The translations under genes and the position numbers were made by a program. A DNA stretch of 64,000 bases from Trichocoleus sp. FACHB-46 (GTDB taxonomy: Bacteria; Cyanobacteriota; Cyanobacteriia; FACHB-46): contig NZ_JACJOD010000024.1 of NCBI RefSeq assembly GCF_014695385.1, positions 124,001-188,000 of the forward strand. The letters run 5' to 3'. The notes beneath the pieces were generated by a model, which saw only the letters and a program-made list of their open reading frames with translations, ran no database searches and had not been told where the DNA came from. Below are positions 32,197 through 52,008 of this stretch, in pieces. The number at the start of each line of letters is the position of its first letter. The stretch's first letter is position 1.

Positions 32197-32283
32197 TAGC
32201 ACCTTGCTTAGATAGTGGTGATCGAGGAATCATCAGCCACCGTACGTATTCATTCAACAGCCCTATTGGAGAATGCATCTAGC

Positions 32284-33114
32284 ATGGAAACTTTAGCTTT
32301 TGTTCATACCGCCGTCGCCTACGCTGACCCTGATTCAGAGCCACAATTTTCTTTCCAGCCGCTTAACTTCAAACTCCTCAATTCTGGATGGATGAGCTTG
32401 GTGGCGATCGCGATCGGCTTGGCAATTCTCAGTACCACTTCAGATGCAATGGCGGCAGTTATAAAACGTGGCTCTAGTGGCAGTCTCGTCGGCACTATAC
32501 AGTCAGCCTTGGTTAATCGTGGCTACAACACGGGTGGCGTGGATGGTGTTTTTGGTCCTGCGACTGAGTCGGCTGTCATTCGCTTTCAGCAACAACAAGG
32601 ACTGAGCGCTGATGGCATTGTCGGTGCGGCAACAGCGGCGGCTCTAGGCATCAATAACGGCAGCATCACTGGTGGTGGCGGTGGTGGCGGTGGCGGTGCT
32701 CCTGGCACTTACACTGTTACTGCTGGAAGTGGGCTACTGATCCGCTCCAGCCCTAGTCGAGGAAGTGCGGTAATCGGCAGTTTGGGGTACGGCGGGCAAG
32801 TGAGTGTTACCAGCAATCGGGCCTCTGGGGACGGTTACACATGGGCACAGCTTGCGGGCGGTGGCTGGGTAGCAGCAGACTACCTCAGCACTGGCGGTGG
32901 TGGCGGTGGTGGTGGCGGCGGTGGCGCGCCGAGCGGTGCGGTCACGATTTCGACCAATGGCAGCGCTCTCAACATTCGCTCTGGTCCCGGTGCTGGCTAC
33001 GGTGTAGTTGGCAGTTTGTCCAATGGCTCACGAGCTAGCATCACTGGGCGCACCTCTAACGGCTGGTATGAACTGGCTAATGGAGGCTGGGTTTCTGGCT
33101 CTTGGATCTATTAA
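32284..33114 (+). CDS. Peptidoglycan-binding/SH3-domain cell-wall protein
   Basis: A secreted or envelope protein of about 276 residues. A hydrophobic helix (about residues 36-55) and a processing-like ATSDAMAA segment are followed by a PG_binding_1 domain (about 60-120, with GVDGVFGPATESAVIRFQQQQGL), a glycine-run linker, an SH3b domain, a second glycine-run linker, and a second SH3b domain (LNIRSGPGAGYGVVG). The frame continues upstream to a GTG at 32215, but METLAFVHTAVAYADP starting at 32284 looks like the usual start in related proteins. It probably binds the wall. No hydrolase domain is present. Confidence 0.85.
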   Translation: METLAFVHTAVAYADPDSEPQFSFQPLNFKLLNSGWMSLVAIAIGLAILSTTSDAMAAVIKRGSSGSLVGTIQSALVNRGYNTGGVDGVFGPATESAVIRFQQQQGLSADGIVGAATAAALGINNGSITGGGGGGGGGAPGTYTVTAGSGLLIRSSPSRGSAVIGSLGYGGQVSVTSNRASGDGYTWAQLAGGGWVAADYLSTGGGGGGGGGGGAPSGAVTISTNGSALNIRSGPGAGYGVVGSLSNGSRASITGRTSNGWYELANGGWVSGSWIY

Positions 33115-48485: not shown

Positions 48486-48732
48486 AGGTCAGATAATCAA
48501 AATGATAACTTCTTACCGCGCTTCTATTCGCCGCAAAAATTGATTCGCTAGATTACCTTTGACCCCACGCTTCTGTATTACAGACAAACTGTAAGCCTGT
48601 CTCAGACTTGCGATCGCTGTTGCAAAATTACTTTAATTAGCTTAGATAAGGCGGAAGTGAGCCTCAACCAGTTGCTAAGCACTAATCGTCATTGAAGCAG
48701 CTTAATATGTTGTAACCGTCAAATTGTGCGAT

Positions 48733-48879
48733 ATGATGAACATTCGTGCTTATTTAGCGATTGCAGTCAACGGCCTCCATCGGCAAGCAAACCAGCGGGG
48801 GTGGAAAGGCGATCGCAACACTCTTAACGACCTGACCTATCCCTGTCTCAACGCTTACTCAATACTTACCGAATTCTGA
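48733..48879 (+). CDS. Possible 48-residue upstream ORF of rimO
   Basis: A small frame beginning [18 protein letters not shown] and ending SILTEF stops 5 bases before the rimO start. The position is that of a leader or coupled small gene. Composition is protein-like with one short hydrophobic stretch, but I know no homologue and no good ribosome binding site is seen, so this is a low-confidence call. Confidence 0.3.
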
Positions 48880-48884
48880 ACTTC

Positions 48885-50201
48885 ATGGGCAATAAGCCAA
48901 CTATTTCCGTCGCACATTTAGGCTGCGAGAAAAATCGGATTGATACTGAACACATGCTCGGTCTGCTTGTGGAAGCAGGCTATCAAGTTGACACCAACGA
49001 AGATTTAGCTGATTACGTCATCGTCAACACTTGCAGTTTTATTCAAGCGGCGCGAGAAGAATCTGTCCGCACCATTGTGGAACTGACTGAAGCCAACAAG
49101 AAAGTGGTAATTACAGGCTGTATGGCACAGCATTTCCAGCAAGAACTGTTGGATGAGTTACCCGAAGCAGTCGCTTTAGTGGGTACAGGTGACTACAACA
49201 AAATAGTCAACGTGATTCAGCGGGTAGAAACAGGTGAGCGCGTCAAAGAAGTAACGGCAGAGCCGACTTACATTGCTGATGAAACCACGCCTCGTTACCG
49301 CACTACTACCGAGGGTGTAGCTTATCTGCGGGTGGCAGAGGGTTGCGATTACCGCTGTGCGTTCTGCATTATTCCGCACCTGAGAGGCAATCAGCGATCG
49401 CGCACCATTGAATCGATTGTGGCCGAGGCTGAGCAATTGGCGGCTGAAGGGGTGCAAGAGATTATCTTGATCTCTCAAATCACCACTAACTATGGTTTGG
49501 ATATCTACGGCGAGCCGAAACTGGATGAACTGCTGCGGGCTTTAGGGAAAGTCAATGTGCCTTGGATTCGCATGCACTATGCCTATCCGACCGGGCTTAC
49601 CCCCAAAGTTATTACCGCCATTCAAGAAACTGCTAACGTTCTGCCCTATCTAGATTTGCCGTTGCAACATTCTCACCCAGAAATTTTGCGGGCGATGAAT
49701 CGCCCTTGGCAAGGTCGCGTCAACGATAGCATTATTGAGCGACTGAAAACTGCTCTTCCGGATGCGGTTCTACGCACCACCTTTATTGTCGGCTTCCCAG
49801 GGGAAACCGATGAGCATTTCGAGCACCTGTTGCAGTTCGTCGAGCGGCATGAATTTGATCACGTCGGTGTGTTTACTTTTTCAGCCGAAGAGGGCACTCC
49901 TGCCTATAGCCTGCCAAATCAAGTACCGCAAGCTATAATGGATCAGCGTCGTGATGCGTTGATGGCTCTTCAACAACCCATTTCCTTGAAGAAGAATCAA
50001 GCTGAGATCGGGAAAACCGTTAACGTTCTGATTGAGCAAGAAAATCCTGAAACTGGCGAGTTGGTTGGGCGTTCGGCTCGCTTTGCTCCAGAAGTTGACG
50101 GTGTTGTCTACGTTCAAGGCGAGGCAGCACTAGGAACCTTAGTTCCAGTTACGATTGCCGACGCTGATGTTTACGATCTTTATGGTTGCGTTGCACCCTA
50201 A
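48885..50201 (+). CDS. rimO: Ribosomal protein S12 methylthiotransferase RimO
   Basis: A 438-residue radical SAM methylthiotransferase, which modifies the universal aspartate of ribosomal protein S12. The N-terminal UPF0004 domain contains [20 protein letters not shown] and TGCMAQ with its three cluster cysteines. The radical SAM core has the CDYRCAFC motif. A C-terminal TRAM domain (about 370-438) follows. The [17 protein letters not shown] and [19 protein letters not shown] segments favour RimO over MiaB. Length is typical. The DEAD-box helicase is next on the same strand. Confidence 0.95.
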
Positions 50202-50259
50202 CAAAAATTAAGGTTGGACAATTTTGTCACTTAGGTCGTAAAATTTCTTAATATGACAG

Positions 50260-50577
50260 CTATTGACCAAGCGCTCATAAGCGCTGGTTAGTTACAAGAA
50301 CCTTGGCAAGACCAGGTAGAGGGTTCTAGCCGCGAGTCTTTAATGGCAATGTACCTGTTTAGGAGGGTACAGCTTGCAAATTGCCGAAGTGGATAAAACC
50401 TTCTAGATCAATACGCTCAGTCTTTGGCAGGGTTCAAACGGCGGACGGCATCCCGTCGAAGCTCGTTGAGGGTGAAGTCGACTCGACTCCCTACGATACG
50501 AGAAAACTGCGACCAAGCTTTTCATGCTTGGGGCGGGAGTATGCCATGCGATTCATGACCCTTATTAACTAAACTGC
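50260..50577 (+). promoter_or_regulatory. Long structured 5' leader of the DEAD-box RNA helicase
   Basis: The 375-base gap contains several hairpins in the plus-strand transcript. AGCGCT-cata-AGCGCT lies at about 50270-50286. GAACC (50298-50302) pairs with GGTTC (50322-50326). GTACC (50351-50355) pairs with GGTAC (50366-50370), with AGGAGG in the loop. GACGG (50444-50448) pairs with CCGTC (50453-50457). A long stem has CTCGT (50462-50466), GGG and AGTCG opposite CGACT, CCC and ACGAG (to 50502). CCAAGC (50513-50518) pairs with GCTTGG (50526-50531). Cyanobacterial cold-inducible RNA helicase genes are known to be regulated through their leaders; that parallel is inference. Could also be a small RNA with its own promoter. 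Confidence 0.55.
50374..50406 (+). CDS. Possible 10-residue leader peptide (TTG start)
   Basis: AGGAGG (50361-50366) sits seven bases ahead of a TTG that opens a ten-codon frame, LQIAEVDKTF in plain translation (Met first), and ends with TAG. A perfect Shine-Dalgarno sequence is unusual for a non-coding leader. It could be a regulatory leader ORF or a coincidence inside the structured leader. Confidence 0.3.
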   Translation: MQIAEVDKTF

Positions 50578-52008
50578 ATGACTCTTTCGTTTCAAAGTCT
50601 CGGCCTCTCTGAAGCCCGCGTTCAACATCTAGAAAAGATCGGTTTTACCACTCCCAGTGCAATTCAAGCCCAAGCCATTCCCCATCTGTTGGCAGGCCGT
50701 GACGTAGTAGGCCAAGCCCAGACGGGTACCGGTAAAACTGCTGCTTTCTCGCTGCCCATCCTAGAGCAGATTGATTTGAATGCTGTAGGGGTGCAGGCGT
50801 TGATCCTAACTCCCACTCGTGAGTTGGCTGTTCAAGTCAGCCAGGCCATTCGTACCTTTAATGATGAGCGACGACTGCACATCCTACCGATTTACGGTGG
50901 TCAAGCGATCGATCGCCAAATTATGCGCCTCAGACAAGGCGTACAGGTAGTGGTAGGAACTCCGGGACGAGTGTTAGATTTACTCGACCGTGGCGACCTC
51001 AAACTCAATCACCTGCGTTGGTTGGTGTTGGATGAAGCTGATGAAATGCTCAATATGGGCTTCATCGATGACGTGGAAAAAATCCTGACTCAGGTGCCCA
51101 CAGAGCGTCATACTGCTTTCTTCTCGGCCACCATGCCCCCTTCGATTCGCAAGTTGGTCAACCGGTTCTTGCGATCGCCCATCACGGTCACGATTGAGCA
51201 GCCCAAAGCCGCTCCTTCTCGGATTAACCAAGTTGCTTACATGGTGCCCCGTGGCTGCACCAAAGCTAGAGCTTTGCAACCGATTCTGGAACTCGAAGAT
51301 CCCGAATCCGCGCTGATCTTTGTGCGGACTCGTCGCGCTGCGGCGGAACTCACTAGCCAACTGCAAGGCGCAGGTCATAGCGTGGATGAATATCACGGTG
51401 ACCTGAGCCAAAGCCAGCGGGAGCGCCTTCTACATCGCTTCCGGGAGACTCAAGTTCGTTGGGTTGTGGCTACCGACATTGCCGCTCGGGGTATCCACGT
51501 CGATGACCTGACTCATGTCATTAACTACGATTTGCCCGATAGCGTTGAGAACTATGTTCACCGGATTGGTCGGACAGGTCGTGCAGGCAAAGAAGGAACT
51601 GCAATCTCTCTGATTCAACCCCTGGATCGTCGCAAACTGCGCGATATTGAGCGTCACATCCGCCAATCTCTGGAAATTCGCTCGATCCCCACTCGGGCTA
51701 TGATTGAAGCGCGTCACATTGAGAAGCTGCAAGCGCAATTGCGTGAAGCACTAGCTGGTGAGCGGATGGCTTCCTTCTTGCCTATCGTGGCGCAACTGGG
51801 TGAAGAGTACGACTCCCACGCGATCGCTGCTGCTGCCCTGCAAATGATTTACGATCGCAGTCGTCCTACTTGGATGCAATCTGAGGCTTATGAGGATATC
51901 GTGACTGACGACAAGCCTCGTCTCAACTCTGGTTCTAAGCCCAAGCCAGTTAAGAAAGTAATCAAGACTTCTCCTGCGCCTCAAGCCTCTGGTTCCAAAA
52001 ACGGCTAA
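50578..52008 (+). CDS. DEAD-box ATP-dependent RNA helicase
   Basis: A 476-residue DEAD-box helicase that unwinds RNA duplexes in translation, ribosome assembly or cold adaptation. Q motif is FTTPSAIQAQ, motif I AQTGTGKT near residue 47, motif II DEAD, motif III SAT, motif V and VI ATDIAARGI and HRIGRTGRAG. The C-terminal extension after residue 385 is variable and ends in a basic Lys/Ser/Pro tail. It belongs with cyanobacterial Crh-type helicases, but I do not assign crhR. The structured leader ahead and the terminator after it suggest a single-gene transcript under leader control. Confidence 0.93.
   Translation: MTLSFQSLGLSEARVQHLEKIGFTTPSAIQAQAIPHLLAGRDVVGQAQTGTGKTAAFSLPILEQIDLNAVGVQALILTPTRELAVQVSQAIRTFNDERRLHILPIYGGQAIDRQIMRLRQGVQVVVGTPGRVLDLLDRGDLKLNHLRWLVLDEADEMLNMGFIDDVEKILTQVPTERHTAFFSATMPPSIRKLVNRFLRSPITVTIEQPKAAPSRINQVAYMVPRGCTKARALQPILELEDPESALIFVRTRRAAAELTSQLQGAGHSVDEYHGDLSQSQRERLLHRFRETQVRWVVATDIAARGIHVDDLTHVINYDLPDSVENYVHRIGRTGRAGKEGTAISLIQPLDRRKLRDIERHIRQSLEIRSIPTRAMIEARHIEKLQAQLREALAGERMASFLPIVAQLGEEYDSHAIAAAALQMIYDRSRPTWMQSEAYEDIVTDDKPRLNSGSKPKPVKKVIKTSPAPQASGSKNG

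Follow-up and report, generated by a model that had tools for sequence, protein, structure and literature searches.

The window analysed here, a 64,000-nt stretch of DNA, covers positions 124,001 to 188,000 of the forward strand of contig NZ_JACJOD010000024.1 in the Trichocoleus sp. FACHB-46 assembly GCF_014695385.1. Pfam matches and gene order place a gene for a CrhR-like DEAD-box RNA helicase directly 3′ of rimO, with the VKOR and BtpA genes further upstream. This order matches the synteny given for the rimO-crhR operon, which likewise has VKOR and BtpA upstream (PMC8190605). The two genes are separated by a gap of 376 nt (50202-50577), and the features of the locus are as follows:

48885-50201, + strand: rimO, ribosomal protein S12 methylthiotransferase, the upstream gene of the pair (Pfam UPF0004, Radical_SAM, TRAM_2)
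50215-50250, + strand: predicted promoter TGGACA-18-TAAAAT followed by TTTCTTAATA (promoter scan); predicted start site at ~50251
50251-50577, + strand: crhR 5′ leader, ~327 nt
50262-50292, + strand: 5′ hairpin of 8+5 bp in the fold; changes only in the loop or pair-keeping (C-G to U-G, U-A to U-G)
50298-50435, + strand: large domain closed by GAACCUUG/CAGGGUUC (50298-50305/50428-50435; closing helix probability 1.0), enclosing inner helices plus the hairpin at 50350-50371
50350-50371, + strand: hairpin of 7 bp; stem kept, loop length varying among species
50428-50463, + strand: conserved block GCAGGGTTCAA...GGCATCCCGTCGAAGCT, common to the crhR leader of G019, a genome of another order (local alignment with L006, p = 0.002); local hairpin or 5′ strand of a long-range helix
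50443-50457, + strand: local hairpin GACGG/CCGTC in the fold
50462-50502, + strand: long bulged hairpin of 5+4+5 bp; variable in loop and bulge, largely invariant in the stem
50513-50531, + strand: hairpin CCAAGC/GCUUGG of 6 bp (probability 1.0); changes confined to the loop
50532-50545, + strand: GGCGGGAGUAUGCC, 3′ partner of 50447-50457 in the long-range helix (probability ~0.5; duplex), containing the SD-like GGGAG; invariant in the genus
50578-52008, + strand: crhR-like DEAD-box RNA helicase gene (Pfam DEAD, Helicase_C, DeaD_dimer)

The rimO-crhR leader is present in a single copy in its own genome. No match in the window exceeded the gathering threshold of any Rfam 15 family, and the region 49900-50900 gave chance-level matches only; a tRNA or tmRNA and a mobile repeat were looked for and not found. 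A terminator scan found no intrinsic terminator in the region. Given that none lies between rimO and crhR, read-through from rimO is also possible. The same result speaks against the suggestion that the leader yields a separate small RNA through processing or premature termination. In their title, Rosana et al. (2020; cited in PMC9655292) refer to two sRNAs from the Synechocystis rimO-crhR operon, and premature termination occurs in the Synechocystis rne 5′ UTR (PMC10989929); on balance, we regard a separate small RNA as improbable.

A σ70-type site, TGGACA-18-TAAAAT, starts 14 nt past the rimO stop codon. The pattern GACAATT-N12..18-TAARATTTCTTMA occurs in exactly one copy per genome in five genomes (three congeneric and one from each of two other orders), always before crhR, and the reversed control of this pattern gave no matches. 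From this one-per-genome occurrence ahead of crhR, transcription is predicted to start near 50251, and the leader is probably ~327 nt long. No part of the gap is conserved more widely than the promoter, which is shared among three orders, with the orders of G019 and G008 represented by one genome each. Only 1 of its 36 bases varies within the genus, and it is all that G008 has in common with this leader. The inverted repeats upstream of ~50250 (e.g., GACAATTTTGTC) are inside the predicted promoter and hence outside the RNA. A transcription start downstream of most hairpins had been named as an outcome that would argue against a regulatory leader; the predicted promoter instead lies upstream of the RNA hairpins.

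The original prediction described hairpins packed directly before the helicase gene at a density beyond that of random DNA. The hairpins at 50262-50292, 50350-50371, 50443-50457, 50462-50502, and 50513-50531 are all present in the fold of the gap, and the long stem at 50462-50502 was correctly recognized. The whole gap has a minimum free energy of -122 kcal/mol compared with -102.5 ± 5.0 in dinucleotide shuffles (z -3.87), and folding from the predicted start site gives z values of -2.8 to -3.6 relative to shuffles. Of 80 stretches drawn at random from the window, 2 also reach z -3 (mean -0.27, sd 1.09). The predicted stability of the leader is thus unusual, not unique, and folding by itself is insufficient for the claim.

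The stronger evidence comes from conservation. The genus comparison comprises three species (the window and two congeners), whose leader sequences are 95% alike. At 95% identity to either congener, the gap ranks first among 18 intergenic regions compared over ~38 kb, several of which do not align. Other intergenic regions longer than 100 nt reach at most 86% identity, while one 95-nt gap comes close (93-94%). Second among the long gaps is the 399-nt gap before rimO (48486-48884), with 84-86% identity in the congeners. The aligned neighboring genes are mostly 72-93% identical to their congeners; the gene at 32215-33114, with 94-95% DNA identity, is the sole neighbor to match the leader. Across the three species, 26 of 327 leader columns vary (8.0%), compared with 13.7% in the rimO part and ~11% in crhR, so that 92% of leader columns are invariant vs 86-89% in the flanking genes.

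The substitutions are also unevenly placed. In the local hairpins, which were picked from the fold, 6 of 74 stem columns vary as against 12 of 36 loop columns (p = 0.0017), and most of the stem substitutions preserve a standard pair. A test of paired vs unpaired columns on the consensus fold gave p = 0.0008 and is biased, since the alignment itself was used to make the fold; when substitutions were permuted on the window sequence's own fold, p was 0.10. For these reasons, we rely on the local-hairpin count. A lack of compensatory changes in relatives had been named as a refuting outcome, and here the count is 113 pairs with 4 one-sided changes, one broken cell, and 0 two-sided changes, an outcome that would nominally speak against the prediction. 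Three sequences that are 95% alike have almost no power in this respect, however, and the missing covariation is therefore weak evidence either way. Finally, only 1 of the first 94 nt of crhR (50578-50671) is variable, compared with 150 of 1337 in the remainder (p = 0.0004), and this near-invariance includes synonymous sites; RNA-level selection may accordingly extend from the leader into the crhR coding region.

Collectively, the computation supports a predicted promoter, a leader under purifying selection, and substitutions that avoid stems. Could the conservation be due instead to DNA elements, i.e., the promoter and regulator binding sites, with RNA folding being incidental? That the promoter is the part retained across orders fits this explanation, and a title cited in PMC10989929 reports a LexA-related protein as a crhR regulator in Synechocystis. 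Conservation, however, spans all 327 nt downstream of the promoter and continues into the coding region, and its substitutions avoid stems; we consider this explanation rather unlikely. The proposal of a cis-acting leader RNA is supported, in that this is the best-conserved intergenic region nearby, its substitutions avoid stems, and its predicted promoter is upstream of the RNA hairpins.

How far does the leader extend beyond the genus? Leader DNA was found in 3 of 291 genomes, all of this genus; a scan of genome contigs returned few cyanobacteria. A covariance model of the 3′ part of the leader, the type of search proposed earlier, revealed no convincing further crhR leader among 81 crhR loci. 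Among the crhR leaders compared outside the genus, where the Synechocystis UTR was not aligned by name, sequence likeness is limited to the promoter and one block. This 37-nt block, GCAGGGTTCAAACGGCGGACGGCATCCCGTCGAAGCT (GCAGGG...GGCATCCCGTC...GCT), recurs before crhR in G019 (p = 0.002, E 6e-9), has one copy per genome, and has no other convincing copy in 380 genomes. The predicted stability of the G019 leader is unremarkable (z -0.4). The sequence CATCCCGTC in two crhR leaders of family f20 (L023 and L024) was considered as a third occurrence and rejected, as a congener (L256) is without it. Those three leaders, together with L241, L244, and L246 of the same family, have TTTTAAGTTATTTTAAG-like DNA in common, and rimO was not found upstream of crhR in five of these six.

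Many cyanobacterial crhR genes begin just 9-120 nt after rimO, and a long leader is therefore not general. Because little of the leader sequence occurs outside one genus and many gaps elsewhere are short, the idea of a new cyanobacterial RNA class is unsupported: a widespread conserved class is not what 3 of 291 genomes, no other leader among 81 loci, and no two-sided changes describe. Two crhR leaders from another genus (L010 and L168) are 70-78% alike mutually and unrelated to this leader, are strongly structured (z -5.5, alignment column shuffles), and have one hairpin that pairs with the SD sequence AGGAG. Structure in unrelated leaders suggests that several lineages may have built structured crhR leaders separately.

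The 3′ part of the leader has two competing predicted structures. When 60 nt of coding sequence is included in the fold, GGCAUCCCGUC (50447-50457) pairs with GGCGGGA-GUA-UGCC (50532-50545) with a probability of ~0.5, and this long-range helix competes with the local GACGG/CCGUC hairpin (50443-50457) at similar weight. The long-range duplex in this genus has a free energy of -19.2 kcal/mol (p = 0.008 vs shuffles). A G019 version of this helix looked convincing by eye and was set aside, as it is no better than shuffles (p = 0.20). These structures raise the possibility of a two-state switch, in which GGCAUCCCGUC would either sit in the local hairpin or mask GGCGGGAGUAUGCC ahead of the start codon, with the encoded helicase setting the balance. 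Such a helicase-sensing leader would be of a sort not described before; we consider this specific model attractive but distinctly speculative.

Competing structures of similar weight would also suit a leader in which folding alone alters access to the start codon with temperature and without CrhR feedback. In Synechocystis, crhR is cold-induced (PMC10989914), and here folds extended by the first 60 nt of coding sequence have a paired start codon. Yet the predicted start-codon pairing is nearly flat from 15 to 37 °C, which would argue against a simple thermometer, and it depends on how much coding sequence is folded. We consider temperature-dependent folding as the sole principle unlikely.

Within the same region is an 8-codon uORF, MRFMTLIN (50546-50572), preceded by GGGAG 6 nt before its ATG and ending with a stop 5 nt before the crhR ATG. 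crhR is without an SD of its own in this genus, in G019, and in G008. This arrangement would fit translational coupling of the uORF to crhR, or a small coding gene in the leader more broadly. The uORF is kept in the genus, a conservation that has no statistical power, but no comparable uORF is present in G019. As for the 63-codon frame at 50381-50572, it has no Pfam match and is rejected as a gene because of a stop in G002 (CCCTAA). Taken together, a coding explanation is very improbable.

The nearest known counterpart is the rimO-crhR intercistronic UTR of Synechocystis sp. PCC 6803, which involves the same gene pair; the present locus differs in having a predicted crhR promoter of its own immediately after rimO. 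The Synechocystis rimO-crhR transcript is subject to RNase E processing and autoregulation (PMC10989929, PMC10989914): RNase E, which autoregulation requires, cuts it in an AU-rich stretch downstream of a short hairpin (PMC10989929). Expression of crhR there is also influenced by CrhR itself, in a CrhR-dependent autoregulation (PMC3485376). A long multi-stem leader is likewise found in the 186-nt 5′ UTR of Caulobacter crescentus rhlE, which encodes a cold-induced DEAD-box helicase; this UTR is required for full expression, and there are signs of helicase autoregulation (PMC5472812). The helicase belongs to another subfamily, and the organism to another phylum; the likeness is one of layout, and we claim no sequence relation. 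Long cis-acting leaders through which an enzyme of RNA metabolism controls its own mRNA also precede rne in Escherichia coli and Synechocystis (PMC10989929). The rne 5′ UTR differs in acting through RNase E on its own gene, with a U-rich site and premature termination in Synechocystis, neither of which is seen here. In E. coli, the cold-shock DEAD-box helicase encoded by deaD (csdA) restrains its own expression via a long leader, a mechanism reported to involve Rho. Cyanobacteria are not known to have Rho, which sets the deaD leader apart from the present one.

We favor, at a probability of about 50%, the reading that crhR has a promoter of its own within the gap, followed by a structured 5′ leader of ~327 nt that regulates the crhR mRNA in cis, controlling translation and stability as in the Synechocystis rimO-crhR UTR. 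The part played by translation and mRNA stability is inferred from that system. RNase E cleavage in Synechocystis and the effect of CrhR on its own expression make regulation at the post-transcriptional level, through RNase E and perhaps also CrhR, the most likely form here. In this scenario, the hairpins would direct RNase E towards single-stranded AU-rich stretches, one candidate being GAGAAAACUG (50500-50509) after the 50462-50502 hairpin. The 3′ part could switch between the local hairpin and the long-range helix, the latter masking the sequence ahead of the start codon. The paired state would be favored in the cold, and CrhR could remodel it, resulting in feedback. Temperature sensing or helicase feedback, both raised by the original prediction, remain plausible in light of the Synechocystis CrhR work (PMC3485376, PMC10989914, PMC10989929). 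Rather than a new RNA class, the leader probably represents a genuine cis-acting control element, of a type for which such helicases already offer examples. It is best read as lineage-specific in sequence and as belonging with the post-transcriptionally controlled rimO-crhR leaders.

At stake is the question of how DEAD-box helicases gauge and restrict their own abundance. With its well-conserved leader, defined predicted promoter, and two testable competing structures, the locus would be a compact setting in which to ask whether CrhR reads the mRNA that encodes it. It would also suggest that crhR leaders have been rebuilt independently across cyanobacterial lineages.
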